From Pelagicoccus enzymogenes (lineage in GTDB: Bacteria > Verrucomicrobiota > Verrucomicrobiia > Opitutales > Opitutaceae), in the NCBI RefSeq assembly GCF_014803405.1, contig NZ_JACYFG010000036.1, positions 62,001 to 126,000 of the forward strand: a DNA stretch of 64,000 nucleotides, in the 5' to 3' direction. Positions 7,543-48,506 of the stretch are shown here, piece by piece (the first letter of the stretch is position 1; each line of letters starts with the position of its first letter). Below the pieces are notes generated by a model. It was given only the letters and a program-made list of their open reading frames with translations, made no database searches and was not told the origin of the DNA. Made by a program: the position numbers and the translations under genes.

Positions 7543-9528
7543 ATGAACCGACTGACCCAAACCCTCGCGGTCCTTGGAGTGGCTGCGCTTAGTCCCATGG
7601 CATACCCCAACCACCACGAATCCCCGTCCCCTATTTCCATCGACCTCGACCACACGGGAGACCCCATCAACCCTTTCATCTACGGGCAATTTATCGAGCA
7701 CCTCGGACGCTGCGTCTACGGCGGAATCTGGGCCGAAATGCTGGAGGATCGCAAGTTCTACTTCCCCATAACCGAAGACTACAATCCCTACAAAAGCCTG
7801 CAAGACACCCAGTTTCCCGTGGTCGGCGCCTCGCCTTGGCAAATCCTCGGTGCCCCCACTGGGCTGCAAATGACCACCGCCGAATCCTTCGTCGGCCAGT
7901 ACACCCCCGCCCTTGCCGCCGGCACCGCCATCCGCCAGCACGACCTCGCCATCGTCTCCGGGCAATCTTACGACGGCTACATTTGGCTGCGCAACGCCGG
8001 CTCCGAACGCAGCACCGTGGAAGTCAGCTTATCCCCCAACGCCCAAGGCAAGAACGCCCAGAGCGCGACCTTCACCGTGCCGGAAGGCGAGTATCAAAAA
8101 TTTCCCTACACCTTCACCGCCTCCACTGACAGCGACAAGGCGAGCCTCACCGTAGGGGTCACCTCCGGGCACGTCCTGGTCGGCACCCTCTCCCTCATGC
8201 CCGCTGACAACATCCGCGGCATGCGGGCCGATACTCTCGCACTCCTCAAGGAGCTCGACTCCCCTATCTACCGCTGGCCGGGCGGCAACTTCGTCTCCGG
8301 CTACAACTGGCGCGACGGCATAGGCGACCGCGACCGCCGCCCTCCACGTAAAAACCCAGCCTGGACCGGCATCGAGCACAACGACTTCGGCACCGACGAG
8401 TTCATCGACTTCTGCCGCGAAATCGGCACCGAGCCCACCATCGCCGCCAACACCGGCTTCGGCGACGCCTATTCCGCCGCCCAGTGGGTCGAGTACTGCA
8501 ACGCTACCGGCGATACTATCGGCGGCCAGTGGCGGGTCGACAACGGCAACTACGAGCCCTACAACGTCAAGTACTGGTGCGTCGGCAACGAAATGTGGGG
8601 CCCCTGGCAGCTCGGCTTCATGCAGCTCGACCATTACGTTCTCAAGCACAACGAAGTCGCCGACGCTATGCGAGCCGTGGACGACGAGCTCGTTCTAATC
8701 GGAGTCGGCGCCGTCGACCAGATCAACAAGGATCACGATCCCGCCCAAGCCGAGGCCAACAAGCTCTGGTCCGTCGGTATGATGGAAAAGTCCGCCGACC
8801 ACATGGAAATGATCTCCGAACATTTCTACTCCGGCCAAACCCCTTGGACCCAGCAAGGCGAATTGCCCACCCTCGAGCACGTCGTGCTCATGCGCGACCA
8901 AATCCGCCGCATCACCAACGAGCACCGCCGCCTCCAACCCGAGATCGAGGCACTCAAAGGCAAGACCATGCCCATCGCCATGGACGAGTGGAACTACTGG
9001 CATCGCGACTACCAGTATGGCGAACTCGGCTGCGTCTACGACCTCAAGGACGCCCTCGGCACCGTCGTCGCCCTGCACGAATTCTACCGCCAAAGCGATC
9101 TCATCCAAATCGCCAACTACGCCCAAACCGTCAACGTCATCGGCTGTATCAAGACTTCCAAGACAGAAGCCGAATTCGCCACCACCGGTATCGCCCTCAA
9201 GCTCTACCGAGCCCAGTGGCAGCCCATTCCCGTGCAGCTGCCCGTCGACGCGCACGGACACCTCGACGTCGCCGCCTCCAAGTCGGAAGACGGCAAAGTC
9301 CTCACCATAAGCGTGGTCAACCCCACCGACAAGGCCGCCACCCTCGACCTCAACGGCCTTGACCTGCCCACCCGAGCCACTATTTGGACCATCACCGGGC
9401 CAGACCACCGCGCCCGCAACGCCCCTGGCAAGGAACGCCAAGTCGATGCCCTAGAAAGCAACGGCAATCCCCGTCAAGGCATCAAGGCCCCCGCCCTTAG
9501 CTCCGTCCTCTACCGCATCGAGCTTTAA
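7543..9528 (+). CDS. Exported GH51 alpha-L-arabinofuranosidase
   Basis: The 661-residue enzyme has an N-terminal signal peptide (about residues 1-22). The GH51 catalytic domain starts near NPFIYGQFIEHLGRCVYGG. The acid/base Glu is E350 in GNEMWGPW and the nucleophile is E482 in AMDEWNYW, both in the expected context. A beta-sandwich domain follows to the C-terminus. GH51 enzymes remove alpha-L-arabinofuranose from arabinan or arabinoxylan. Its position opposite a furanose-type ABC importer suggests that it releases the imported sugar in the periplasm. The gene ends at a strong terminator. Codon use is very GC-rich at third positions. Confidence 0.93.
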   Translation: MNRLTQTLAVLGVAALSPMAYPNHHESPSPISIDLDHTGDPINPFIYGQFIEHLGRCVYGGIWAEMLEDRKFYFPITEDYNPYKSLQDTQFPVVGASPWQILGAPTGLQMTTAESFVGQYTPALAAGTAIRQHDLAIVSGQSYDGYIWLRNAGSERSTVEVSLSPNAQGKNAQSATFTVPEGEYQKFPYTFTASTDSDKASLTVGVTSGHVLVGTLSLMPADNIRGMRADTLALLKELDSPIYRWPGGNFVSGYNWRDGIGDRDRRPPRKNPAWTGIEHNDFGTDEFIDFCREIGTEPTIAANTGFGDAYSAAQWVEYCNATGDTIGGQWRVDNGNYEPYNVKYWCVGNEMWGPWQLGFMQLDHYVLKHNEVADAMRAVDDELVLIGVGAVDQINKDHDPAQAEANKLWSVGMMEKSADHMEMISEHFYSGQTPWTQQGELPTLEHVVLMRDQIRRITNEHRRLQPEIEALKGKTMPIAMDEWNYWHRDYQYGELGCVYDLKDALGTVVALHEFYRQSDLIQIANYAQTVNVIGCIKTSKTEAEFATTGIALKLYRAQWQPIPVQLPVDAHGHLDVAASKSEDGKVLTISVVNPTDKAATLDLNGLDLPTRATIWTITGPDHRARNAPGKERQVDALESNGNPRQGIKAPALSSVLYRIEL

Positions 9529-16262: not shown

Positions 16263-17930
16263 ATGATACGAAACTCCTGTCTCGTCTTCCTCGCGGCTGC
16301 AGCAGTCGCGGGTTCCCATGCTCAACCGTTTCCCGTATCCATAACTGTAGACGCCGAGAACAGCCTCGGCGAATACCGTCAGATCTGGCGTTTCTTTGGA
16401 GCTGACGAACCGAACTACGCCTACATGAAGGACGGCAAGAAACTCCTCTCCCAACTGGGAGAGCTGCAGGCGAAAAACGTCTACTTCCGTACCCATAATC
16501 TCATGACGAGCGGTGACGGTTCCCCCGCCTTGAAGTGGGGCAGCACCAACATGTACACGGAAGACGAAGAGGGAAACCCCATCTACGATTGGACTCTCGT
16601 CGATCTCATATTCGACACCTATCTCGAAAACGGTGTCCGTCCCTATGTCCAGCTCGGGTTCATGCCGGAAGCCCTTTCCAGCAAGCCGCACCCCTACAAG
16701 CATGAATGGCGGCCCGGCTTTCGCTACGAGAAAGTTTATACCGGTTGGGCATATCCGCCCGAAGACTACGAAAAATGGGGCGAACTCTGTTATCAATGGG
16801 CCAAGCATTGCCTCGAACGCTACGGGAAGGAAGAAGTCGAGAGCTGGTACTGGCAAACCTGGAACGAGGCGAATATCGGCTATTGGCAAGGCACGCTGGA
16901 AGAGTTTCTAAAACTCCACGACTACGCGATCGATGGAGTACAGAGAGCCATCCCCGGCGCTCGCGTCGGCGGGCCAGACGTCGCGGGAAGCGGTGGTGAT
17001 TTCACCAGAGGTTTTATAGAGCATTGCTTGCGCGGAAAGAATTACGCCACCGGCCATACGGGAACCCAGCTGGACTTCGTGTCCTTCCACGCCAAGGGGC
17101 ACCCCCGCTACCAGGAGGACCACATCCGCATGGGCATTTCCAACCAACTCAAAGCCATCGACAATGGATTTGGCATCGTAGCCTCTTTCCCCGAGTTGAA
17201 AGAGACGCCGATCATTATCGGGGAGTCCGATCCCGAGGGCTGCGCAGCCTGCCAAGGCGACATGTTTTCCTATCGCAACGGAACCGTCTATTCGAGCTAC
17301 ACTGCCGCTTCCTTCGCTCGCAAGCACGATCTGGCCGACAGGCACGGCGTCACCTTCGACGGAGCGCTCAGCTGGGCGTTCACCTTCGAAGACCAAGCCT
17401 ACTTCGCCGGCTTCCGCCAACTCGCTTCCAACGGCGTCGCCTTGCCCGTACTCAACGTTTTTCGCATGATGAGTAAAATGGGCGGCGACCGTATCCAAAC
17501 CGACAGTACGGCAGCAATCGAACTCCAAGAAATGATAGACGTCGGCGTTCGCGACCAGCCGGATGTCGCAGCATTCGCCACCCTTGAGGACAACCGCGTC
17601 GCAGTTATGGTCTGGCACTACCACGACGATGACCTGCCCGGGGAGGACGCCGCAGTCAGCCTCAGCTTGAGAAATCTCCCCGGCAATAGGTCCAACGCCA
17701 AGTTGACCCACTACCGAATCGACGAATATCACAGCAACGCCTACGACCTTTGGCTGCGCATGGGCAAGCCCGTAGCCCCCAACGAGGAAGCCTACGCAGA
17801 GCTGCAAGCCGCCTCGGAGCTCGCGATCCTCGAAAATTCCCCGAGCTCGGTCGAAATTTCCGCAGGCCAAGCCAAGCTTGATTTCGCCCTCCCTCGCCAA
17901 GGCGTATCGCTCCTCCTGCTTGAACTTTAG
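16263..17930 (+). CDS. Exported GH39-family glycoside hydrolase (beta-xylosidase-like)
   Basis: The 555-residue protein has a signal peptide (MIRNSCLVFLAAAAVAGSHA). It matches the GH39 clan-A barrel: the proton donor is E202 in QTWNEANIGYW and the nucleophile is E321 in PIIIGESDPEGC. A C-terminal beta-sandwich with AVMVWHYHDDDLPG is as in GH39 xylosidases. Known GH39 activities include beta-xylosidase, alpha-L-iduronidase and activities on arabinose- or galactose-containing glycans. The pectin setting leaves the true substrate open. It begins 57 bp after the acetyltransferase and ends before a large inverted repeat. Confidence 0.82.
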   Translation: MIRNSCLVFLAAAAVAGSHAQPFPVSITVDAENSLGEYRQIWRFFGADEPNYAYMKDGKKLLSQLGELQAKNVYFRTHNLMTSGDGSPALKWGSTNMYTEDEEGNPIYDWTLVDLIFDTYLENGVRPYVQLGFMPEALSSKPHPYKHEWRPGFRYEKVYTGWAYPPEDYEKWGELCYQWAKHCLERYGKEEVESWYWQTWNEANIGYWQGTLEEFLKLHDYAIDGVQRAIPGARVGGPDVAGSGGDFTRGFIEHCLRGKNYATGHTGTQLDFVSFHAKGHPRYQEDHIRMGISNQLKAIDNGFGIVASFPELKETPIIIGESDPEGCAACQGDMFSYRNGTVYSSYTAASFARKHDLADRHGVTFDGALSWAFTFEDQAYFAGFRQLASNGVALPVLNVFRMMSKMGGDRIQTDSTAAIELQEMIDVGVRDQPDVAAFATLEDNRVAVMVWHYHDDDLPGEDAAVSLSLRNLPGNRSNAKLTHYRIDEYHSNAYDLWLRMGKPVAPNEEAYAELQAASELAILENSPSSVEISAGQAKLDFALPRQGVSLLLLEL

Positions 17931-21509: not shown

Positions 21510-21809
21510 ATGGATTCTGCGAACTTACAATCAGACGGAAACGCTTTGGAACGAATGCTCACGGTGCAAAACCAAATGGGCATCCACGCTCGGCCCGCCG
21601 CCATGATTGTGAGAGTCACCAATAAGTTCACCTCGGACGTCTTCTTCGAGAAGGACGACGAGCAAGTGAACGGCAAGTCCATCATGGGCCTCATGATGCT
21701 CGCAGCCGGCAAGGGGTCCGAAATCAAAACCCTCGCTACCGGCCCCGACGCCGCCGAGTGTCTCGACGCGCTGGAAGCGCTTTTCGCCACCAAGTTCGAC
21801 GAAAAGTAA
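21510..21809 (+). CDS. HPr family phosphocarrier protein
   Basis: The 99-residue protein has the HPr active site GIHARPAAMIV, with the phospho-accepting His26. It has the regulatory-serine region VNGKSIMGLMML, with Ser57 at the position of Ser46. There is an N-terminal extension of about 15 residues. No ptsI, EII or HPr kinase gene is adjacent. In Gram-negative bacteria without sugar PTS, such HPr proteins often serve regulation. Presence of both sites suggests that both phosphorylations are possible. Confidence 0.93.
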   Translation: MDSANLQSDGNALERMLTVQNQMGIHARPAAMIVRVTNKFTSDVFFEKDDEQVNGKSIMGLMMLAAGKGSEIKTLATGPDAAECLDALEALFATKFDEK

Positions 21810-22052: not shown

Positions 22053-22081
22053 TTGATAATTTCCCGTTTTCGCACTACAAT
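22053..22081 (+). promoter_or_regulatory. Promoter of the multiheme cytochrome operon
   Basis: TTGATA, a 17-base spacer and TACAAT give a near-consensus vegetative promoter about 108 bp upstream of the first cytochrome gene. The region between it and the ATG is AT-rich and leaves room for a long 5' leader. No clear Shine-Dalgarno precedes that ATG. Confidence 0.6.
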
Positions 22082-22189: not shown

Positions 22190-22981
22190 ATGAACGATCA
22201 TACCTCGTCCCGTTCAGGCGGCTTTCGCAAGAGCAAGGCCGCACTTTTTGGCAGCATCGCCGTGATGACGATTCTTGCTGCTTGTAGCGTGAACTACCAG
22301 GCCTACTTCCGGCCCCCTCAAATCCCCGGAGCCTCCTTCATGGGAGTGCAGAGCTGCGAGGAGTGCCACGAAGAAATCGTTTCCGGCTTCGACTCGGCCA
22401 CCCACGCCAAGCTGCTCGCCGACGGCAACCACGCCGTCAACATGGGCTGCGAGGCCTGCCACGGGCCCGGCAGTATCCACAACGATAGCGGTGGAGAAAT
22501 CGGAACGATCCACAATCCGCAGGCCGACCCCGATACCTGCTACCAGTGCCACCTCGACGTGAAAGGCTCGTTCGCCCTTGCCCACGCCCACCCAATCGGG
22601 GACCAAATCACCTGCAACGACTGCCATGACCCGCATTACGGATCGGCGATCAAAGGAGGAGGCGTCGCTAGCATGAGAGAAGGCGAAACCTGCGTGCAAT
22701 GTCACCAAGCCCAGGCTGGACCTTTCGTATTCGAGCACGAAGCCACCCGGGACGGATGCACGACTTGCCACACGCCCCACGGGTCGCCCAGCGAGAAGAT
22801 GCTCAAGACCAGCAACCAAATGCTCTGCCTCCAATGCCACTTCCAACAACAAACCGCTCCTGACGTCATCCTAATCGGAGGCCGCAACCACGCCTCTTTT
22901 GTTAGCCGCGGCACTTGCTGGACTGCCGGCTGCCACGAGTCGGTCCACGGATCGCACGTAAATTCCTCCCTCAGGTATTAA
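22190..22981 (+). CDS. Octaheme c-type cytochrome lipoprotein (MtrA/DmsE-like)
   Basis: The 263-residue protein has a lipobox ending at LAAC (Cys32). It has seven CXXCH sites (CEECH, CEACH, CYQCH, CNDCH, CVQCH, CTTCH, CLQCH) and a final CX4CH site, CWTAGCH, followed by ESVHGSHVNSSLRY. That ending is typical of the MtrA/DmsE family of periplasmic cytochromes that plug an outer-membrane porin. Known members are usually decaheme, so this is a shorter form. It directly precedes the beta-barrel gene (24 bp gap). It probably carries electrons between periplasm and outer-membrane barrel, anchored by lipid. Confidence 0.88.
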   Translation: MNDHTSSRSGGFRKSKAALFGSIAVMTILAACSVNYQAYFRPPQIPGASFMGVQSCEECHEEIVSGFDSATHAKLLADGNHAVNMGCEACHGPGSIHNDSGGEIGTIHNPQADPDTCYQCHLDVKGSFALAHAHPIGDQITCNDCHDPHYGSAIKGGGVASMREGETCVQCHQAQAGPFVFEHEATRDGCTTCHTPHGSPSEKMLKTSNQMLCLQCHFQQQTAPDVILIGGRNHASFVSRGTCWTAGCHESVHGSHVNSSLRY

Positions 22982-23005
22982 CATTTCGAGTACAAGGAGC
23001 CAAAA

Positions 23006-25084
23006 ATGAAAAATGCAGTTTCGACACCCCTTAGCCCCGTCTCCGCTCTTTCCACAACCCTGAGCGCCGCCGTCCTTGCGATCGCATTTCCCCTCACCGC
23101 CCATTCGCAAGAGCAGTTGCCGGATTCCGGCAACTACGTGGACATCACACTGGGACACGCCTCCCACAATGGAAACGAAGCAGCCTACCTTGCTCGCCAC
23201 CCCATCAAGAAGCACGCCTACGGCGGGATCGAGCGCTTCCAGTACGAAGGCTACGTGGGCGACTATACGGAGTTCTCCGTGGAAGGCCGCGCCATGTTCG
23301 ACAACAACGACTACCTCTTCGGTATGGAGTTCCTCAACGAGGAAGTCGGCTTCCTCAAGCTGAAGTACGAGGAGTACCGCGTCTACTACGACGGTAGCGG
23401 AAAGTACTTTCCGGGAGGCGACACCTGGATCGATATCTACGACGATGAGCTCGCCATCGATCGCAGCACCTTCGAACTCTCCGCCGGACTGACGCTCGAG
23501 GATTTGCCCGAAGTGGAGTTCAGCTACATCCGCCACGAAAGGAACGGATTGAAGTCGTCTTCCGCCCTCGCCGATACCACCCTTACCAACGGGTTCGGCA
23601 CCCGCAACATCGTTCCCACCTTCTGGGACATCGACGAGTCGCGCGACATCTTCGAGATCGCCGCCAAGGAGAAATTCGGAAACACCAAGACGAAGCTTTC
23701 CCTGCGCAGCGAAAGCAGCGACACCGACAACGCTCGCAAGATGACAAGGCGGCCTAACGAATCCGCGTTCCGGCGTATCACCCACCGCGAAACCTACGAT
23801 AGCGACCTTCTCAGCGCCCGCTTCTCCTCGATCACCGAGATCGACGACAAGAATACCTTTACCGCAGGCATCGCCTACACCGAAATCGACGCCAACGTTA
23901 CCGGAGGCAGAATCTACGGGTCCGAGTTCGACGCGCCCTTCGACGTCGACTTCCAAGGCCAACGTCGCGACCACGGCTGGACCAACCTAATCGCCGACAG
24001 CCAAATCGACCAATGGCTGCTCAACGCTAACTGGTTGAGCAAACCGGCAAAGAACTGGAAGGCAGTCTACTCGCTACGTCTCGAGGAAATGAATACAGGC
24101 ATCGTCAGCGAATTCGACGAAACCGAATTCTCCACCTCATCCAACGAGTTCGAGATCCACCCCATAGCTCTTGACGCCCACAGCGACTGGAAGGACGTGG
24201 CCGCGTCCGCCGAGTTCACCTACACCGGCCAGGAGAATACGGTTTACAGCGGAGCCATCCTCTACACCACCGGCGACGGAGACCAATTCGAAGAAGAATT
24301 CGACGCGGAAACAGGCAGCCAATTGCTGGAACGCTTGTCCAACAACGAACGGGACGTTCTGAAAGTCTCCGCCAGCGCGAAGTTCTACCCCAGCTCCGAC
24401 TTGCGCTACATCGTCAACGTTTACCACAAGGAACGCGACAACAAGTTCACGCATATAATCGATCCAGATCCCGGAGCCTATCCCGCATTCACCTCGGGAC
24501 AGGACTTCACCACCGACGACATCAATGTCTCCGTCCGCTGGAAAGCCAGCAAGCGCCTTAGCGGATTAACCCGCATCGACTACCAGAAATCTTCCATCGA
24601 TTCTCAAGGCCTGGGGCTCGAATGGGTCAACTCCTACGATCGCAAGGCTCTCATTTTCAGCCAATCCGCGACCCTCGCTTTCGAGAAGTTCTACATCCAA
24701 GCATCAGGCGTCTTCATGGACGACGCTCGCGAGTCTCCTGTGTCCACCATCGGAGGCGGAGTCGCCGATACAGTCGCAGTCCTAGACGGCGACTTCTGGA
24801 ATGGAAACCTCTCTGCTTCCTGGGGCATCGACGAAAACTCCAGCGCCGCCGTTACGCTATTCTACAACGCCGTCGACAACTACGTCGACAACAGCGAATT
24901 CGCCCAACCCTACGGCGAGGACCTAGTCGAAACAGGAGCCAGCGCCACCTACACCCGCCAGCTGACCGACAACGCTCAGCTAACCCTCCGCTACTCCTAC
25001 TACGACAGCGAAGACAAAGCCGCAGGAGGCTTCAACGACTACGACGCCCAAGTGCTCTACAGCTCCATCCGCTATCGCTTCTAA
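23006..25084 (+). CDS. Outer-membrane beta-barrel protein, MtrB/PioB-like porin
   Basis: The 692-residue protein has a signal peptide (to about residue 35). Alternating hydrophobic/polar strands run throughout, and it ends in SSIRYRF with the terminal Phe of outer-membrane barrels. Acidic loops are abundant (for example GDGDQFEEEFDAETG). A strong AAGGAG site precedes the ATG. Located between an MtrA-like cytochrome and a monoheme cytochrome, it is best read as the porin sheath of a porin-cytochrome conduit, like MtrB, PioB or DmsF. No N-terminal CXXC pair typical of MtrB is seen, so it may belong to a separate barrel family. Confidence 0.75.
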   Translation: MKNAVSTPLSPVSALSTTLSAAVLAIAFPLTAHSQEQLPDSGNYVDITLGHASHNGNEAAYLARHPIKKHAYGGIERFQYEGYVGDYTEFSVEGRAMFDNNDYLFGMEFLNEEVGFLKLKYEEYRVYYDGSGKYFPGGDTWIDIYDDELAIDRSTFELSAGLTLEDLPEVEFSYIRHERNGLKSSSALADTTLTNGFGTRNIVPTFWDIDESRDIFEIAAKEKFGNTKTKLSLRSESSDTDNARKMTRRPNESAFRRITHRETYDSDLLSARFSSITEIDDKNTFTAGIAYTEIDANVTGGRIYGSEFDAPFDVDFQGQRRDHGWTNLIADSQIDQWLLNANWLSKPAKNWKAVYSLRLEEMNTGIVSEFDETEFSTSSNEFEIHPIALDAHSDWKDVAASAEFTYTGQENTVYSGAILYTTGDGDQFEEEFDAETGSQLLERLSNNERDVLKVSASAKFYPSSDLRYIVNVYHKERDNKFTHIIDPDPGAYPAFTSGQDFTTDDINVSVRWKASKRLSGLTRIDYQKSSIDSQGLGLEWVNSYDRKALIFSQSATLAFEKFYIQASGVFMDDARESPVSTIGGGVADTVAVLDGDFWNGNLSASWGIDENSSAAVTLFYNAVDNYVDNSEFAQPYGEDLVETGASATYTRQLTDNAQLTLRYSYYDSEDKAAGGFNDYDAQVLYSSIRYRF

Positions 25085-25109
25085 CCACCAAGACTAATCC
25101 AGATTCAAT

Positions 25110-25445
25110 ATGAAACTCAAAACTTACGCACTGTTTGCTGTCGCTGCCATCTTCGGCGGATCCTTAGCCGCCGATGACTTCGATGTCGTCGCCGCTTGGG
25201 GAAAGGACTGCCAAAAGTGCCACGCCGAAGACGGCAGCGGCCTCACCAAAAAAGGCCGCAAGCTCCGCCTAAAGGACTACCGCAAAGCCGAAGTCCAAGC
25301 CGAAATGTCAGACGAGGAAATCGTGAAAGCCATCAAGGAAGGCGTGAAGGAGGACGGCGAGTTCACTATGAACGCCTACGGCGAAGATTACACCGACGAG
25401 CAAATCGCAGCTTTCCTCGCCTACGTTCGCTCGCTGGCGAAATAG
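25110..25445 (+). CDS. Small monoheme c-type cytochrome
   Basis: The 111-residue exported protein has a signal peptide (about 1-20), one heme site CQKCH, and a class-I cytochrome c fold. The distal ligand is probably the Met in FTMNAYGEDYTDEQ, and the protein ends in AFLAYVRSLAK. It lies 25 bp after the barrel gene and is probably a soluble periplasmic electron shuttle between the membrane heptaheme protein and the octaheme lipoprotein. Confidence 0.88.
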   Translation: MKLKTYALFAVAAIFGGSLAADDFDVVAAWGKDCQKCHAEDGSGLTKKGRKLRLKDYRKAEVQAEMSDEEIVKAIKEGVKEDGEFTMNAYGEDYTDEQIAAFLAYVRSLAK

Positions 25446-25581
25446 CGCGAACCCCATGGGACGGCTCTTCCAGGGTCGTTCCTCGACTTAAGCCCTATCA
25501 AGAAAACGAGGAGCTTCCCCTCCTCCCCCTGAGACTCGCCTAGAAAGCGAGCCTATGTAACACTGTATCCAAATACCGAAT

Positions 25582-27081
25582 ATGCCAAACGACCCAAACG
25601 ACGACAACGAACGCGGACTGCTCCTGCACTTTCGCAACTGGCTGAGCCTTGCCGGCTTGATCGTCGTCGGTGGCAGCTTCTTCGCCTTCCTTCTGCTCAT
25701 CGGATTCGACCTCGTGACTGGCGGATCGAATCCCTATGTCGGCATTCTCAGCTACATCGTAGCGCCCCTCTTCTTCGGATTCGGCTCCCTGCTCACATTC
25801 GTGGGTTGGCTGTGGCACTGGCGAAAACGCCGTGGGCAAGGCGTCACGCTTCGCTTCGACCTGTCGAAGCTGAAGGACCGTCGCATATTCGGAGCCTTCA
25901 TCGGAGCCGCTATGGTATTCATGTTCGCCACCAGCATGGGCAGCTACCAGACCTATACCTACACGAGTTCCAACCAATTCTGCGGCGTGCTCTGCCACTC
26001 CGTGATGGAGCCCGAGTTCGTTGCCTACGACGACGACATCCATTCGCACCTCAACTGCGTCGACTGCCACGTAGGCGAGGGAGCGAAAGGGGCCTTCAAA
26101 GCCAAATGGCACGGCATCTACAAGGTTTACTCGCTCGCCTTCAACAAGTATCCCACGCCGCTGCGAGCCGATCCCCACTACCTGCCAAGCACCCAAGAAA
26201 GCTGCAACAAGTGCCACGAAGACGGTCCCGATTTCAAGGACGTCGCCAAGACCTACCACCATTACCTAAGCGACGACGAAAACACACCTTTCTCCGTCAC
26301 CTTACGCCTCAAACTGGGCCCCGAGAAGAACGCCCTAGGCGAAACCAACGGCATTCACTGGCACGCGAAGGAGGAAAACAAGATCGAGTTCACCACCGCC
26401 CAGGAGAATCCAGACGTCATCCCCTGGATAAAGGTAAGCAAGGAAGACGGAAGCGTAACAGAGTACACCTTTACTCCAGACGAAGACGCGGAGGACCTGC
26501 CCGACCTAAATCTCGTAAGCGACGTCCAAACCATGGACTGCATCGACTGCCATAGCCGCCCCGCCCATGGTTTCAAGAAACCCAACGACCTTGTCGACCG
26601 AGCCCTCCACCATGGTCACCTGTCCATGGAGCTCCCCGAACTCAAGTACGTCGTCGCCCGCGCCCTCGACCCCACTTACGAGTCGCGCGAAGAGGCCAAG
26701 ACCTCCATTACCAAAACCCTGCGCGAAGAACTCAAAGGCCCGGCTCCCGCGATCGAGCAAGCCATCGCCATCGTGCACGACTTCTACGCGAAAAACATTT
26801 TTCCGGAAATGAAAGCCGACTGGCGGGCCTACCCGGACCACATCGGACACAAGGACACGCTCGGCTGCTTCCGCTGCCATGACGACAAGCACACTACTTT
26901 TGACGGCTCCAAAACCCTTTCCGCCAAGAACTGCCACACCTGCCACGACGTCATCTCGCAAGGCGATCCGGAAAACATGACCTTCGCTACCTCGCAAGAA
27001 ACCGAGTTCGACCACCCTGACGGTTCCTACCTCGGCTTCACCTGCGCCGAATGCCACACCGGCGGCCTCCAGCTCGAATAG
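25582..27081 (+). CDS. Heptaheme NapC/NirT-like membrane cytochrome
   Basis: The 499-residue protein has three N-terminal membrane segments (about 20-42, 56-80 and 104-122). A periplasmic domain follows with seven heme sites: CGVLCH (CX3CH, residues 134-139) in the NapC/NirT context FCGVLCHSVMEPEF, then CVDCH, CNKCH, CIDCH, CFRCH, CHTCH and CAECH. NapC-type proteins oxidise menaquinol and pass electrons to periplasmic partners. This one is more than twice the length of NapC. The 136-bp gap before it contains two small hairpins (25508-25525, 25535-25551), which may tune expression. It is the inferred inner-membrane entry of the electron chain. Confidence 0.87.
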   Translation: MPNDPNDDNERGLLLHFRNWLSLAGLIVVGGSFFAFLLLIGFDLVTGGSNPYVGILSYIVAPLFFGFGSLLTFVGWLWHWRKRRGQGVTLRFDLSKLKDRRIFGAFIGAAMVFMFATSMGSYQTYTYTSSNQFCGVLCHSVMEPEFVAYDDDIHSHLNCVDCHVGEGAKGAFKAKWHGIYKVYSLAFNKYPTPLRADPHYLPSTQESCNKCHEDGPDFKDVAKTYHHYLSDDENTPFSVTLRLKLGPEKNALGETNGIHWHAKEENKIEFTTAQENPDVIPWIKVSKEDGSVTEYTFTPDEDAEDLPDLNLVSDVQTMDCIDCHSRPAHGFKKPNDLVDRALHHGHLSMELPELKYVVARALDPTYESREEAKTSITKTLREELKGPAPAIEQAIAIVHDFYAKNIFPEMKADWRAYPDHIGHKDTLGCFRCHDDKHTTFDGSKTLSAKNCHTCHDVISQGDPENMTFATSQETEFDHPDGSYLGFTCAECHTGGLQLE

Positions 27082-27145: not shown

Positions 27146-27946
27146 CTACCTCAAGCCATAAAAAGCCGTCGCCGTAGCCGTAGTCTTTGCCGCAAACGCC
27201 TCCAGCGACACCCCAAACAGCTCCGCGCAATACGCAGCCGTATAGGCCAAGTACGCCGGCTCGTTCGGCTTTCCCCGCTTCGGCATCGGCGCCAGATAAG
27301 GCGCATCCGTCTCAATCATCAAGCGATCCAAGCCCTGCAGCTTGGCAGCCTCTCTCACGCTCTCCGCGTTCTTGAAGGTGATGACGCCTGTGAAACTGCC
27401 GAAGCCGCCGCGATCGAGCAACTGCTTCATCTCGCCCGGACCTTCGGAAAAGCAGTGGAAAACCACCTTGCTCCAATCCACCCCGCTCGCGTCGATCAGC
27501 TCCACGCACTCCTCGAAAGCCCCGCGCGAATGGATCACCACCGGGCAATCCAGCTTCTTAGCCAATTGCAACTGCGCCTCGCAGGCCGCCACCTGCAGCT
27601 CGAAAATTCGCTTCGCCGCCGCCTCGTCGCCGCGCGGCAGGTGGAAACGATCCAAGCCAATTTCCCCCAGCGCCACCGGCTTCAAATTCCGACTCCAAAA
27701 AGCCTCGATCTGCTCGAAGCCCCTATCCCAGCCCGTCTCCACGGAGCACGGATGGATACCCACCGTGTAGTCGACCTGGGAATACTTCTCGGCCATCTCG
27801 GCATACACATCCCAGTCGTCCGTATCCGTCCCTACCGTAACCAGTCGCTCCAGACCAGCCTCGGACGCAGCCTCCAAGGTCTGGTCCAGCAAGCCCTTGA
27901 GAGCGAAGCTATGTAAATGCGTGTGCGAATCGACGATTCCAGCCAT
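27146..27946 (-). CDS. TatD-family metal-dependent hydrolase/DNase
   Basis: The start at 27946 (MAGIVDSHTHLHSF) places the metal-binding DSHTHLH at the N-terminus as in TatD; the longer open frame upstream lacks family similarity. The 266-residue protein also has GEIGLDRFH (metal-bridging Glu), VIHSRGAFEE, FHCFSEG and IETDAPYLAP, the full set of TIM-barrel metal ligands. TatD proteins are 3'-5' DNases or D-aminoacyl-tRNA-related hydrolases in the cytoplasm. It is convergent with the cytochrome operon. Confidence 0.93.
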   Translation of the reverse strand: MAGIVDSHTHLHSFALKGLLDQTLEAASEAGLERLVTVGTDTDDWDVYAEMAEKYSQVDYTVGIHPCSVETGWDRGFEQIEAFWSRNLKPVALGEIGLDRFHLPRGDEAAAKRIFELQVAACEAQLQLAKKLDCPVVIHSRGAFEECVELIDASGVDWSKVVFHCFSEGPGEMKQLLDRGGFGSFTGVITFKNAESVREAAKLQGLDRLMIETDAPYLAPMPKRGKPNEPAYLAYTAAYCAELFGVSLEAFAAKTTATATAFYGLR

Positions 27947-28007
27947 GCCCACCAAACCGCCAACGACCCGCCCTATCCGCAACCTTAAAACGACCCGAGC
28001 TCGTATG

Positions 28008-28048
28008 GGGTGTCTGTCCCCCGACAAACTCGAGGGACGGAAGGACAC
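28008..28048. repeat. Imperfect palindrome upstream of trxB
   Basis: GGTGTCTGTCCC (28009-28020) is followed by a 13-base loop region and then GGGACGGAAGGACAC, which pairs imperfectly. It lies in the tatD/trxB divergent gap and is another REP-like form, distinct from the other families in the window. Confidence 0.4.
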
Positions 28049-36187: not shown

Positions 36188-37060
36188 ATGAGCAACGTCC
36201 TACTCGGCCTCGCCGACAAACAATGGATCTGGATCGCAACCGTCGTCTTCGCGTCCACCTTCGTGCTCGGCAGCTACTCCGCTCTCAAGTTGCGACGCAA
36301 GACGGGACGGCCCTACATTCTCGGTCTGGTGACCTTCGGTTGGGTGCTGCAGACAATCGGCCTCTACGCTCGCGGTTTGCAGTACGGAGGTTGCCCGCTC
36401 TCCAACCAATTCGAACTGGTCCAGTTTATGGTTTGGTCGGCCATCGCCATCTACATCTTCGTGGGCCCCGCCTTCCGGGTGAGCCTGCTAGGAGTCTTCG
36501 CCTCAGGCTTCGCCTGCGTTTTTTCCATCCTGTCGCTCGCTTTGGAGAACTGGGACGACCCGAGTCGCAAGCCGATCTTTGGCGAATCCCCTTGGATCGA
36601 AACCCACGCCGCCCTCGCCCTGTTCAGCTACGGGGTATTCGGCGTGCTCACGCTCACTTCCGCCATGTACCTGCTGCAAAGCCGTAGCCTCAAGACCAAG
36701 AAGGTCGTCGGCGGACTCTTCCCCTTCCTGCCTTCCATCGTGGAACTAGTCAGCATCAACCGCCGATTGCTGGTTATGGGATTCAGTATCCTCACTGTGT
36801 CCTTGGCTATCGGATACAGATATTTTATGGAGGACCTCGAATCGGTGCTGACGATCAAACTCGCTTCTACGGTCGCTGTCTGGATCGCCTACGCTATCAC
36901 CTTAGCCCTGCGCCTGAAGTTCTCCCTCACCTCCAAAAAATTCGCTTGGGCCTGCATCGGGATTTTCCTCGCAGCGCTGCTCTCGCTCGCCGCCGTCAAC
37001 CGAAGCACCAAGTCGAGCAGCCCAACCGCAGAACCAGCCCAGTCCTCCGAGGTCTCATGA
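36188..37060 (+). CDS. HemX/CcsA-like cytochrome c assembly membrane protein
   Basis: The 290-residue protein has about eight membrane segments and the CytC_asm fold (LVTFGWVLQTIGLYARG, GGCPLSNQFELVQFMVW, ETHAALALFSYGVFGVLT with a conserved His). The tryptophan-rich WWD heme-handling motif of true CcsA/CcmC is not seen, so a HemX-type role is more likely. Its stop overlaps the hemA start in ATGA, as in hemAX-type operons, where HemX lowers HemA levels. It may couple heme synthesis with cytochrome c assembly. Confidence 0.78.
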   Translation: MSNVLLGLADKQWIWIATVVFASTFVLGSYSALKLRRKTGRPYILGLVTFGWVLQTIGLYARGLQYGGCPLSNQFELVQFMVWSAIAIYIFVGPAFRVSLLGVFASGFACVFSILSLALENWDDPSRKPIFGESPWIETHAALALFSYGVFGVLTLTSAMYLLQSRSLKTKKVVGGLFPFLPSIVELVSINRRLLVMGFSILTVSLAIGYRYFMEDLESVLTIKLASTVAVWIAYAITLALRLKFSLTSKKFAWACIGIFLAALLSLAAVNRSTKSSSPTAEPAQSSEVS

Positions 37061-44078: not shown

Positions 44079-47000
44079 CTAGTCAACCTCGAAACGCCAG
44101 GTCCCGGAGCCTACCACGAGCTGCAAGTGACCTTGATTGTCCTCTCCAATCGCGATCCCCTCCGCTTCCGCTGCGAGCGTCCCATTTGCAAAAACGGTTC
44201 CGCTTCCCCATTCGGGCAGATTCACCCTCGCAGTACAGTTCGCTGGCACCGCCAAGAACAGTTCAAATTTGCCCTCGGACTTCTTCCAACGAGCTTGGAC
44301 CGGACCACGAACACTGTCGAATCGAGCCTCTGCCCAATCGATGCCTTCAATAGGCTGCGGATCCACGATCACGTTGCTGAATCCGGGAGCAGATTCGTCG
44401 GGCTTCAATCCCACCAACGAACCGTAAAACCACTCCATGATATGGCCCAGCATGAAGTGGTTGTGGGAGGAGTGCCGATCCGCGTCCCATGCCTCCGTCA
44501 AGCTAGTCGCCCCTTTGGCCAATTGCATTCCGTAACCGGGACGATCCGACTGGTGGTGCATGTCGAAAATAACATCGGACCGGCCGGCCTTCGAGAGCGC
44601 CAAGAGCAGGTAACGATGTCCCACGTCGCCCGCGGTAAACGCGTTACCGCGGGAACGGATATCTGCAACGATCGTATCAATCACTGAATCTTCGTGCCCC
44701 TCCGGCACCAAACCCAGCACGTACGCCATAGCATTGCCGGCTTGGCTCGTCGCGCCGTAGTGTCCCGCCTCCCGATCGAAATGGGCCGCGTTGAAAGCAT
44801 GCTCAATCTGCTCGGCCAGGCTGTCCAAACGTTTCGCTTCTTGGCGCTTTCCGAGAAGCTTCGCCATCTTTTGCAGCGTCCTTACATCTTGATGATAGAT
44901 AGCCGTAGCGCTCAGGGAAATAGGAGTCAGCTGAGAAAACCCCGGTCTGCCCGGCCCCAAGTCGTACCAATCACCCAAACCATGATCCAGCAAATGCCCC
45001 GACGCCTTGCTTCCCAAGTACTCGACATAGCGTTTCATCTCATCGTAGTGAGAACTGAATACACCGCGATCTCCCGTCCACAGGTATTGCTGCCAGGACG
45101 CGAGGATCAAGGAGCTCCCCCATTCCGGAGAATCGCGAAAAGCGCCGTCAAAAGTTATAAACTCGGGCGAGATATTGGTAACAAGTCCGTCGTCCGTTTG
45201 GGATTCGACCATATCGCCGAATGCCTTGCGGAAGAGCCTGTTCACATCGAACTCGTAGCGCAACGAGGGTCCGTTCAAGTGATACTGCTCCATCCAGCCC
45301 AGCCGCTCTCGGTGCGGACAATCCGTTAAGACGCTCACCATATTGCTGCGCTGAGCCCAGCGTATCAACTCGCGGGTTCGGTTGAACAAATCGCTGGAGC
45401 TCGCAAATTCTCCGATTCCTTGAGAGCTTGAATGCGTCACCACACTTTCAATACGCAAGATCTCCGGACGGCTCGTTCCCTCAGAACCTTCTCGCCGCTC
45501 GACCTGCAAATAACGAGCTCCATGATAAAAGAACTCCGGACGCCAGGTTTCCACCTTACCTTCACCCCGCAAGGTGTATTGCCAATACGCATCCTTGCCC
45601 CCGTGGGCCGATGAACCGCGGTAAACCGATCCGTCCTCCCGCAGGAGCTCCCCCGGGGTCATTTTCACCACTGCGCCACACTCACCTTTCACTTGGATCT
45701 CAGGGATCATGGACGCGTTCTGGCCAAAGTCGTATACAGAGACCCCATCCCCCAAATCTATGACCTTCACAGGCTTCAACCGTTCGTGACCCACCAATGG
45801 GGGAGCCGAGTGAGACGCTCCTTTCAGCTGCCCAGCCGGTCGTGGAGCGAGCGCCACCGCCAGCCAGCCATCCCCAGCAAAGCCAGGCTTCGCCCAACCC
45901 TCCTCCTCAAGCCGCCCGTCGAAATCCTCTCCCCCATAGACATGGCTGTAAACCGTCGGCCCCACCTTCGTTTGCCAAGCTTCGTCGGTAACCAACTCCT
46001 CAACCGAACCGTCCTCATATTCAATCCTCAGACAAGCTATCGCTTTAAGCGGTCGAAAACGCCCCACAAACTTGGTGTATCGGTTTCCTGGATGCGATAC
46101 GCTGTACATCCCGCTTGCCAGCTCTAGCCCGATCGCGTTTTCGCCAGAATTGAGCAGAGCAGTTACATCACGGGAATCGTACAAAACCGTTCGATCCGTA
46201 TCCGTCCACCCCGGACTCAAGCGATCTTCGCCCACTCGAGTTCCATTGATGCGCAATGCGTAGTGACCGAGACCAGTTACGTGAATCAGCGCCCTCCTGA
46301 CGCCCTTCCCCACCTGAAACTCTCTCCGCAAACGGATCGTTTTGGTACCCAATGAGTTGCTCCCCGGGACACCTTTTCCGTCTACCACAGCAGCAGCTGA
46401 CCACAACCCCTCCTCAAGACTGTCGCTCGCCGTAACCTTCGCTCCCAATGCCACATTCTCTCCCCCGCTGCGAATCTCGATTTGACTGAGAGCTAAACAT
46501 ATTTCTCCGTCCAATTCCCTCAAGCGAGGCACTTCCAACCTCAGGTAGCGAGCCGACTGAGCTTGCTCTAACTTGAACTCGTGCTTGGTAAACCACTTGT
46601 TGGTGTGCGGCGGCTTCGTGTAGTCGACGATCAAATACGGTTGCGAGAAACTGGGATCTTTCGACAGCTCCAACTTGAACTCAGTTGGAAATCCCAAACG
46701 CTCGGCCACCGTGTGACGCAGGGCGTGCAGCAACACCTCCTCCACCGCATAGACTTTCCCGAGATCGACTTCAATCCACTTGGGCGCGTCCACCGATGCA
46801 GCGGTTTCGGAGCGGTAGCCGAGATGAGAGCGATTCGCTTCCAACCAATCCGGATGAGCAATCCACTTCGCTCCCTTCCACGCTGCCTCATCCAAGGCAC
46901 CCATGGCCCATCGCCCCGCAGGAGACCAATCTGAAACCGATCCGCCCTGATCCCACACCCGAAGCTTCCAGAAGACTTCTTGGTCCGACTGCAACGCCTC

Positions 47001-48506
47001 ACCTGCATACGGCACTCCATATTGACGATCGGACTTTACCTTTCCACTGTCCCACAAGTCGCCTTTCTCCGCGGAGAGCAGCTCAGCATTTGACGCTACC
47101 AGAATCTGGTAGGCACGTTGCCTCACGTTCCGCGCTTCACTTTCTAGCTTCCAAGACAGTCGCGGCCTCTCCGTATCCACCCCAAGTGGACTGTCCATGT
47201 CGTCCGTCCTCAAATCGTAAATACTAATCGTCTCTAGCGGTTTGTCCTCCTGAAGACGGTCCAAAACACGCCCCACCGCCTCTGCGCTGCGCAAGCCCCC
47301 CACTGGAACGCGATGCAGGTCGTCGAACACACGCAGCTGCTCCCATGACTCGATTACGATGCCCGATTCGTCTATCTCCGCTCCTCCATCAGAAATCGCC
47401 GACAAGTCCAAGCCAAAGGCATCAGCGAAAAACGAATACATGGCCTTGCGCTTGTTCGGCCCATAATTGTGCCCTTCCTCCGGCAAATGCGTGTTCGAAA
47501 CACGATCCCTTGCTCCGTAAAGCGAATAAACGTGTTGAAGAAACGGATACTCGTCCTTGGGAGTATTTACCGACCAGTCGCCTCCCACCGAAATAAGCGT
47601 CTGCGGCCTCGGCGCCGCCATGGCAGCAATCATGGCGTTACTCGCAAAATGGTCTTTGCTGCGATGCACTGGACGCCCACTCTCGCAAGGGCATCCACCA
47701 AAGAAATAGGCGGACACCATAGTTACGGGCGCCGTTGCGGCGATTCGATCGTCAACCGCCGCCAGCAAAAAAGCCTGCGTACCGCCTCCCGAGTAACCAG
47801 TTACTCCCAGCCTCTGGGAATCGACCTCCGGCAATGACTCCAGAAAATCGAGCGCTCGTATGGCGTTCCAAAGCTGGATCCGCATCGCGACCTCAGTTCG
47901 GTGAGCATCCTCTCCAACCTGGGCAATGCCATCCGCATACCCAAACATGTCGATGCTGAAAACCACTGCGCCCATCTTGGCCAAGGCCGCAGCTCGATGC
48001 TGGTTTTGCTCATGATACCGACCGTACCTTGCCCACTGCTCAGGACGCTCCACCCGTCCAGCATGCCCGTGTGTATTCAAAATGGCGGGTACCTTTCCCT
48101 CTGGATCGATCGGACGAAACAAGTTACCCGTCGCCCAAAATCCGGGCACCGTCTCAATCGCTACATTTTCAACGCTGTAGCCGTCGTACTCCCGCCGCGA
48201 ATGAACGATAGGATTGAGGGGTGTCCGCTGCGGTAAGGGGGCTAGGCCCGCTCCTTGCAATATCCTTTCCCTCACCAGCTCCCGGTAGGCTTCCCATTTC
48301 TCTTTGGTATCGAACTCCTCTGCCGCCGCCTGCAGCACACGAGCCCCCATCTCTTCGCTTAGAAAAGACCGCGTGCACAACATCGACTCGTCCGCCTCCG
48401 GAAATCCCTCCGGCAACCAATCGAGCTTGGATGCCTGAACAAGGCTCGCGGCACCAAACGCCAATAGAGAAAAAAATCTTACAAATCTGAATTCAGAAAG
48501 TGTCAT
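44079..48506 (-). CDS. Fusion of alpha/beta-hydrolase esterase and GH78 alpha-L-rhamnosidase
   Basis: The 1475-residue exported protein (signal peptide to about 26) has two enzymes. Residues about 30-380 are an acetyl-esterase-like alpha/beta hydrolase with Ser239 in GVTGYSGGGTQAFL and a C-terminal His in EEGHNYGP. Residues about 445-1475 are GH78, with RPRLSWKLESEARNVRQRAY and the catalytic-region motif DCPHRERLGWMEQYHLNG from Asp1062, and TEAWDAD near the end. Inside the GH78 N-terminal part, about 590-725, lies a discoidin-like insert (WIEVDLGKVYAVEEVLL, LRLEVPRLRE). It probably deacetylates and removes rhamnose from rhamnogalacturonan. Last gene of the operon. Confidence 0.88.
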   Translation of the reverse strand: MTLSEFRFVRFFSLLAFGAASLVQASKLDWLPEGFPEADESMLCTRSFLSEEMGARVLQAAAEEFDTKEKWEAYRELVRERILQGAGLAPLPQRTPLNPIVHSRREYDGYSVENVAIETVPGFWATGNLFRPIDPEGKVPAILNTHGHAGRVERPEQWARYGRYHEQNQHRAAALAKMGAVVFSIDMFGYADGIAQVGEDAHRTEVAMRIQLWNAIRALDFLESLPEVDSQRLGVTGYSGGGTQAFLLAAVDDRIAATAPVTMVSAYFFGGCPCESGRPVHRSKDHFASNAMIAAMAAPRPQTLISVGGDWSVNTPKDEYPFLQHVYSLYGARDRVSNTHLPEEGHNYGPNKRKAMYSFFADAFGLDLSAISDGGAEIDESGIVIESWEQLRVFDDLHRVPVGGLRSAEAVGRVLDRLQEDKPLETISIYDLRTDDMDSPLGVDTERPRLSWKLESEARNVRQRAYQILVASNAELLSAEKGDLWDSGKVKSDRQYGVPYAGEALQSDQEVFWKLRVWDQGGSVSDWSPAGRWAMGALDEAAWKGAKWIAHPDWLEANRSHLGYRSETAASVDAPKWIEVDLGKVYAVEEVLLHALRHTVAERLGFPTEFKLELSKDPSFSQPYLIVDYTKPPHTNKWFTKHEFKLEQAQSARYLRLEVPRLRELDGEICLALSQIEIRSGGENVALGAKVTASDSLEEGLWSAAAVVDGKGVPGSNSLGTKTIRLRREFQVGKGVRRALIHVTGLGHYALRINGTRVGEDRLSPGWTDTDRTVLYDSRDVTALLNSGENAIGLELASGMYSVSHPGNRYTKFVGRFRPLKAIACLRIEYEDGSVEELVTDEAWQTKVGPTVYSHVYGGEDFDGRLEEEGWAKPGFAGDGWLAVALAPRPAGQLKGASHSAPPLVGHERLKPVKVIDLGDGVSVYDFGQNASMIPEIQVKGECGAVVKMTPGELLREDGSVYRGSSAHGGKDAYWQYTLRGEGKVETWRPEFFYHGARYLQVERREGSEGTSRPEILRIESVVTHSSSQGIGEFASSSDLFNRTRELIRWAQRSNMVSVLTDCPHRERLGWMEQYHLNGPSLRYEFDVNRLFRKAFGDMVESQTDDGLVTNISPEFITFDGAFRDSPEWGSSLILASWQQYLWTGDRGVFSSHYDEMKRYVEYLGSKASGHLLDHGLGDWYDLGPGRPGFSQLTPISLSATAIYHQDVRTLQKMAKLLGKRQEAKRLDSLAEQIEHAFNAAHFDREAGHYGATSQAGNAMAYVLGLVPEGHEDSVIDTIVADIRSRGNAFTAGDVGHRYLLLALSKAGRSDVIFDMHHQSDRPGYGMQLAKGATSLTEAWDADRHSSHNHFMLGHIMEWFYGSLVGLKPDESAPGFSNVIVDPQPIEGIDWAEARFDSVRGPVQARWKKSEGKFELFLAVPANCTARVNLPEWGSGTVFANGTLAAEAEGIAIGEDNQGHLQLVVGSGTWRFEVD

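Follow-up and report, generated by a model that had tools for sequence, protein, structure and literature searches.

A putative outward electron conduit in Pelagicoccus: a four-gene porin-cytochrome cassette with an ImcH-like quinol oxidase candidate

The usual picture of electron export is drawn from Shewanella and Geobacter, with extended chains of cytochromes and with reductases at the surface. For Verrucomicrobia, clusters of a porin gene and an 8-heme cytochrome gene were described by He et al. in 2017, and electron export to humics was proposed for them (PMC5615132). Here, a cassette of this kind is described from a stretch of 64,000 nucleotides of Pelagicoccus enzymogenes (Verrucomicrobiota; contig NZ_JACYFG010000036.1, positions 62,001 to 126,000), called the window in the following. 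It consists of four open reading frames (ORFs) on the same strand, at 22190-27081, encoding an octaheme cytochrome, an outer-membrane barrel, a monoheme cytochrome and a heptaheme cytochrome. The cassette probably provides a path of outward extracellular electron transfer, from quinol to an outside acceptor; the parts inferred for the path between quinol and outer membrane lie together in one operon of 4.9 kb, within a draft genome of 6.2 Mb.

The clusters of He et al., reported from Opitutus terrae and others of the same phylum, combine an 8-heme cytochrome with a neighbouring porin for which 20 or more strands are predicted. Judged by their published description, the window has the same arrangement, and the octaheme-barrel cassette is a variant of these already published clusters. 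According to the available text of the 2017 paper, Shewanella- or Geobacter-type homologues were not found, and the text names no quinol oxidase, whereas the window shows remote homology to MtrA and MtrB and includes an ImcH-like gene in the operon. By this comparison, the verrucomicrobial octaheme-porin clusters are connected with the MtrAB superfamily, and an MtrAB-like pair is seen to have an ImcH-like oxidase as its neighbour. An earlier note, made from the sequence of the window, had called verrucomicrobial sets little studied, which is fair, apart from the 2017 clusters. No description of this four-gene set was found in the open-licence literature on ImcH, porin-cytochromes and Verrucomicrobia, as far as its partial coverage goes.

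The MtrAB(C) complex of Shewanella is represented by structure 6r2q, whose chains A and B we take to be MtrA and MtrB, in agreement with the make-up of the chains. The octaheme aligns to chain A and the barrel model to chain B; unlike MtrAB(C), the cassette is without hemes 3 and 4, its last heme motif is CX4CH, the cytochrome has a probable lipid anchor, no MtrC is encoded in the operon and an ImcH-like protein replaces CymA. In Geobacter, GSU2203 (OmcK) and GSU2204 both rise on iron-oxide minerals (PMC4070692). The GSU2203 family (NF041028) is the top-scoring NCBIfam model for the octaheme, and 4 of 53 barrels match the GSU2204 family; GSU2203 is, on the other hand, a decaheme, and the curated cut-off of its family is not reached by the octaheme (154.8 of 325 bits).

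The genes of the cassette are as follows.

22190..22981, + strand: octaheme c-type cytochrome, probable lipoprotein, MtrA/DmsE-like (motifs, match to 6r2q_A, alignments, model)
23006..25084, + strand: MtrB-like outer-membrane barrel (AlphaFold2 model, fold and profile comparison)
25110..25445, + strand: small monoheme c-type cytochrome (PF13442, PF00034, one CX2CH)
25582..27081, + strand: heptaheme inner-membrane cytochrome, ImcH-like (PF03264, motifs, hydropathy)

They are separated by 24 base pairs (bp) between octaheme and barrel, 25 bp between barrel and monoheme, and 136 bp between monoheme and heptaheme. The motif count gives 8 + 1 + 7 = 16 heme sites, none of them in the barrel. The earlier note had reported the same four genes in a row and the same sixteen sites, with a 692-residue barrel and a NapC/NirT-like heptaheme; ORFs, motifs and the PF03264 match bear this out. 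The barrel gene has AGGAG directly 5' of its ATG, and the encoded N terminus is hydrophobic. The monoheme (111 amino acids, aa; one CX2CH; matches to PF13442 and PF00034) also has a hydrophobic N terminus, and is proposed to be a periplasmic shuttle.

The octaheme is 263 aa long, with seven CX2CH motifs and one terminal CX4CH (CWTAGCH, aa 243). When compared with PDB sequences, it matched 6r2q_A (E 2.6e-26), and the same chain came first (E 6.1e-9; runner-up, E 0.53) in a fold search with its AlphaFold2 model, built from a 62-row alignment; homology to MtrA is found both by sequence and by fold. In the database copy used, chain A carries the name cystathionine beta-synthase. Alignment of 14 octahemes with 11 nona- and decahemes gave eight heme columns in common, while the columns of hemes 3 and 4 were empty in 14/14 octahemes and occupied in 11/11 of the others. 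The octaheme is a relative of the MtrA/DmsE family without hemes 3 and 4, carrying eight hemes in place of the ten of that family.

The pattern of seven CX2CH and one CX4CH was observed in 56 proteins of the collected set and in each of the 64 different octaheme genes collected for the synteny analysis. CX4CH is absent from 15 nona- and decahemes, and also from seven weak, distant matches with seven CX2CH. For the MtrA of Opitutus, 7-8 canonical heme sites were reported in 2013, the eighth written as 'TxxCH' (PMC3669403); since CWTAGCH contains TAGCH, this site is probably the CX4CH motif seen here.

A Cys at aa 32, in the lipobox column, is shared by 56/56 aligned octahemes, and in none of them is the next residue an Asp; the same column has a Cys in 0/6 decahemes of that alignment. 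A stricter lipobox pattern was found in 51/56 octahemes versus 2/15 nona- and decahemes. The octaheme had been called a lipoprotein in the earlier note, and is probably one; the Cys column agrees with that claim, whereas lipidation itself is a prediction. In E. coli, Asp after the lipobox Cys is the signal for retention at the inner membrane, a rule not established for Verrucomicrobiota. Going by the residue after the Cys, an inner-membrane location, which the earlier note had named as fatal to the conduit, is not indicated.

The barrel protein, 692 aa long, has no heme motif. Its AlphaFold2 model, obtained from 53 sequences, has a mean predicted local distance difference test score (pLDDT) of 87.9 and 26 strands of at least 10 residues, the strand number of MtrB (PMC12133095). 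When the model was searched by Foldseek, 6r2q_B came first (E 9.0e-15, template modelling score, TM, 0.63/0.67), and the other 49 among the best 50 of 789 matches had TM values of 0.49 at most. Profile-profile comparison with 15 barrels encoded beside MtrA/DmsE-type cytochromes gave a probability of 99.2% (E 3.1e-19, 613 columns); eight of these 15 were scanned, and five of the eight match PF11854 (MtrB_PioB). With 15 MtrB-type sequences taken singly, the probabilities ranged from 1.9 to 92.5, so that single sequences are uneven partners in this comparison. After removal of duplicates and of matches to either barrel set, 4 ORFs were left of 72 control candidates, scoring 0.1-0.8, and the control set is weak, none of the four being a verified barrel. 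Judged by its predicted fold, the barrel is distantly related to MtrB and not an unrelated porin, the outcome that the earlier note had set down as contrary to a conduit.

The heptaheme protein is 499 aa long, with one CX3CH (at 134), six CX2CH, three hydrophobic stretches in the hydropathy plot (23-41, 53-71 and 102-120) and a NapC/NirT domain (PF03264, 44 bits, cut-off 24.1). The ImcH of the Geobacter type has 495-519 aa, six CX2CH and, next to three membrane motifs, an atypical CX3CH (PMC6295460). The heptaheme agrees with this architecture in length, in three N-terminal helices by hydropathy and in motif pattern. Among 58 genomes from the class of a Desulfuromonadaceae metagenome-assembled genome (MAG; locus L095), presumably Desulfuromonadia, 44 have a heptaheme match at E 0.001. 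In 39 of them the match reaches E 6.2e-40 or better and counts as strong, with 30-38% identity where it is in one piece; the other five have weak hits only. Identity to the twelve best matches, none of which is labelled ImcH, is 35-37%. Further matches, at 33-34%, were obtained via loci of Anaeromyxobacter, Acidobacteria (two) and Binatota, with five of ten genomes matched.

When 29 heptahemes were aligned, six heme columns were occupied in all of them and the seventh in 25; the first motif is CX3CH in 28. The 14 verrucomicrobial heptahemes form one supported group in a quick tree, made with no bootstrap and carrying a long-branch warning. The protein fits the description of ImcH, and is so named by architecture and class-level match. 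Two other assignments were rejected: CymA is a tetraheme with one membrane helix, versus seven hemes and three hydrophobic stretches here, and NrfH disagrees in heme and helix count (TIGR03153, 55.4 of 134.2 bits). The earlier note had found that barrel and heptaheme do not match the standard MtrB and CymA forms. As far as family matches go this is so, and the heptaheme is not CymA; a wholly separate barrel is not borne out, given its remote relation to MtrB, and the heptaheme fits ImcH.

One ImcH has been reported in Verrucomicrobia, and in the available text of the same 2018 survey no mtrAB was found beside imcH (PMC6295460), whereas in the window the MtrAB-like pair lies upstream of the ImcH-like gene, one gene away. 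Such a pairing is not wholly new, since ImcH- or NapC/NirT-like genes are described in six of eight small-decaheme clusters (PMC13264449).

The occurrence of the cassette was analysed in eight Pelagicoccus genomes, including that of the window. In the window, it is flanked by the following features.

21510..21809, + strand: HPr gene, left flank (family match)
22053..22081, + strand: promoter-like TTGATA-17-TACAAT, 108 bp upstream of the octaheme ATG (10/12 matches; weak)
27146..28048, - strand: TatD-family DNase gene, right flank, convergent with HPr (family match)

Four of the eight genomes (G000, G001, G004 and G006) carry the cassette between HPr and TatD; in the others (G002, G003, G005 and G007) HPr adjoins TatD, with 31-93 bp between the matched parts. 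Genome-wide search of these four for octaheme, barrel and heptaheme found no octaheme, no barrel and no full-length heptaheme, and gave short, weak heptaheme hits in three of them. Presence or absence as a unit across the genus is good evidence that the cassette genes work together. All four genes are present in a named strain, Pelagicoccus mobilis KCTC 13126. The octaheme of the window is 76% identical to that of KCTC 13126 and 90% identical to that of Pelagicoccus sp. SDUM812005, the genes of these two strains being those already counted in G001 and G004 (L036 = L159, L037 = L160). The promoter-like site is weak evidence, as 3 such sites were found versus 1.5 expected by chance.

Pelagicoccus is a heterotrophic genus. 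Obligate aerobes and facultative anaerobes are described among its members, which come from seawater, marine sediment and seagrass settings (PMC10288369), and a search of the open-licence literature on Pelagicoccus and extracellular electron transfer found nothing. Since P. mobilis carries the cassette and genomes of the same genus are without it at the same site, its function is open to comparison and to gene removal. The main value of the locus lies in this contrast, accessible to experiment, between Pelagicoccus strains with the cassette and those without it.

Outside the genus comparison, the barrel gene lies directly downstream of the octaheme gene in 63 of 64 distinct relatives, as it does in the window; the exception, L043, has broken frames. 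The monoheme is found in the position it has in the window in 33 of 58 relatives with at least 3.5 kb of downstream sequence. Where the downstream sequence extends to 4.5 kb or more (54 relatives), the heptaheme is in place in 16, 15 of them with all four genes, and elsewhere in the stretch in nine more. Recurrence of the gene order in relatives, together with the conservation of heme columns, puts the four-gene set beyond chance.

The octaheme-barrel pair is a fixed core and the electron-entry module is variable; with the heptaheme in place in 16/54, other lineages therefore use the pair in other settings. One type of protein with 4 or 5 hemes, defined by a length of 200-285 aa and a short sequence pattern, occurs in 11/54 relatives, in one together with the heptaheme; 19/54 have neither, three of which (L158, L167 and L174) have other 5-heme proteins. 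Heptaheme and 4/5-heme protein seldom co-occur (Fisher p 0.007, uncorrected for relatedness). The 4/5-heme loci are L053:8298-9035, L056:7309-8148, L057, L061, L154:8543-9181, L162, L163, L166, L168, L169 and L172; a hydrophobic N-terminal stretch is present in the seven proteins read, and the protein is mostly found where the heptaheme is absent. It is possibly an alternative electron-entry module.

Gene set, heme motifs, homologies, folds, synteny and the joint presence or absence of three of the four genes are shown by the analysis; on this basis we infer a complex of octaheme and barrel, together with the following order of steps. The ImcH-like heptaheme would oxidise menaquinol at the inner membrane, as ImcH does above about -0.1 V (review, PMC12307469), and pass the electrons to the small periplasmic monoheme. 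This would reduce the octaheme, which presumably passes through the 26-strand barrel and is held by a lipid anchor on the periplasmic side of the outer membrane. The outermost heme of the octaheme, probably the CX4CH one, would hand the electrons to an acceptor outside. At low oxygen, minerals of Fe(III) or Mn(IV) or humic quinones would be the most likely acceptors. If a surface cytochrome is lacking, this heme may be exposed to the medium, as is supposed for PioAB and MtoAB. The sequence and the models are best read as suggested in the earlier note, as a porin-cytochrome conduit that has its own quinol oxidase. We further propose, tentatively and with rather less than even confidence, that the cassette is minimal and self-contained, quinol oxidase, monoheme and octaheme-barrel pair being sufficient without a surface cytochrome, and that its gain or loss takes place as a single unit, in a marine genus that is in culture and is not known to export electrons.

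Several results weigh against such a conduit. The octaheme remains below the cut-off of TIGR03508 (DmsE), with 145.0 versus 192.2 bits, as well as below that of NF041028, and the confidence of its model, predicted with no hemes in place, is only fair (pLDDT 79.6). Taken as a single sequence, the barrel has no match in Pfam, NCBIfam or PDB sequences, PF11854 included at E 1, and the profile of 53 barrels gave two chance-level matches only (E 0.27 and 0.39) against PDB sequences; its link to MtrB comes solely from profile-profile and fold comparison. Among the 53 barrel relatives, two match PF11854 (best 3.3e-10) and four NF041027, the GSU2204 family (best E 5.2e-5), and four also match the unrelated family PF07396 (Porin_O_P; best 2e-4). 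With more matches to PF07396 than to PF11854, generic barrel similarity contributes to the profile match; the Foldseek margin is the firmer evidence. The heptaheme is in place in the minority of testable relatives given above, and the literature examined, in the parts available, holds no experiment on any family member.

The barrel results bear on an explanation in which there is no trans-membrane wire: the barrel would be an unrelated porin, and the octaheme would serve in the periplasm as an electron buffer or as a reductase. The failure of single-sequence methods to link the barrel to MtrB and the PF07396 matches speak for it, and the Verrucomicrobia genomes of He et al., as far as the available text goes, are without homologues of the Shewanella and Geobacter systems (PMC5615132). 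We consider it very unlikely: the predicted folds of the two proteins pick 6r2q_A and 6r2q_B as first matches, that is the two partners of one solved complex, the profile comparison reaches 99.2%, and the two genes are adjacent in 63/64 relatives.

The operon encodes no surface cytochrome and no terminal reductase, as had been noted before. In the whole genome, nothing exceeded the cut-off for the OmcA/MtrC family (TIGR03507; best 23.7 of 209.3 bits) or for DmsA (best 120 of 777.7 bits, a NapA-like gene). The lack of a surface cytochrome would also suit the same conduit run inward, with outside electrons, for instance from Fe(II), passing to the heptaheme, which would reduce quinone, as proposed for MtoAB and PioAB. 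The heterotrophy of the genus and its obligately aerobic or facultatively anaerobic growth speak against this direction. PioAB and MtoAB lack an extracellular cytochrome (PMC6344600); ImcH, whose description the heptaheme fits, is in the available text reported from Fe(III) reducers alone, with no role other than that of a quinol oxidase (PMC6295460), for which reason outward flow is favoured and the inward direction appears unlikely.

The conduit could instead feed an extracellular or surface enzyme encoded elsewhere, and not a mineral, for example a DmsA-type reductase or an oxidative enzyme cutting polysaccharides. The resemblance of the octaheme to DmsE, which serves extracellular dimethyl sulfoxide respiration (PMC3669403), points in this direction, as does the presence of several polysaccharide-degrading genes in the window. 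The cassette contains no enzyme gene, and the best DmsA score in the genome belongs to the NapA-like gene; with the enzyme search confined to DmsA, this explanation is held to be improbable. A mineral or humic acceptor at the end of an outward path is preferred.

The genome encodes other multiheme proteins, namely an 8-heme protein with tetratricopeptide repeats (TPR; L123:6581-8821, contig C6), a 10-heme protein of 446 aa (L124:6101-7441, contig C8), which adjoins a 668-aa protein reading like a flavin adenine dinucleotide oxidoreductase, and a 4-heme protein beside the NapA-like gene. In a scan of proteins with PF22113, the Pfam domain of MtrC/MtrF (cut-off 30 bits), the 10-heme protein scored 40.6 and the 8-heme TPR protein 34.3 bits, while a six-frame search of the genome gave none over the cut-off (best 28.5 bits). 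As two multihemes of the same genome pass PF22113, a surface partner outside the operon is conceivable; the model seems loose for multihemes in general, and the 5-heme protein of L056 passes too (34.5 bits). Either protein could cooperate with the conduit or have nothing to do with it. Among the relatives, a 792-aa protein with 9 hemes (L140) reaches 56.8 of 30 bits with PF22113, which makes it a possible surface cytochrome.

Multiheme proteins fused to a cytochrome b domain, with 9-13 hemes, are encoded at L047:3748-5592 and L052:13433-15754 (PF01292 in both) and, by reading, at L063, L146 and L161; they share clusters with an ImcH-like gene. As surface reductases, those of L047 and L052 were rejected, since with PF01292 they look like inner-membrane proteins; the fusions resemble quinol oxidases of the CbcL/MtoC type. 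The octaheme-barrel pair with CX4CH also occurs in MAGs labelled outside Verrucomicrobiota, L065 (Ca. Binatota) and L061 ('Proteobacteria'), by either horizontal transfer or misbinning. In L050:4738-10801, two octaheme-barrel pairs lie in tandem on one contig.

Elsewhere in the host genome, a NapC/NirT-type gene, over the cut-off, and an NrfA-like gene are found at L184:5418-7548 (contig C35, about 195.4-197.5 kb), some 106 kb from the cassette, which lies on the same contig. Within the window, a gene for a cytochrome c assembly protein (PF01578) lies at 36188-37057, about 9 kb downstream of the cassette. The polysaccharide-degrading genes of the window encode an arabinofuranosidase (7543-9525), a GH39 enzyme (16263-17927) and a large alpha-L-rhamnosidase (44082-48506).

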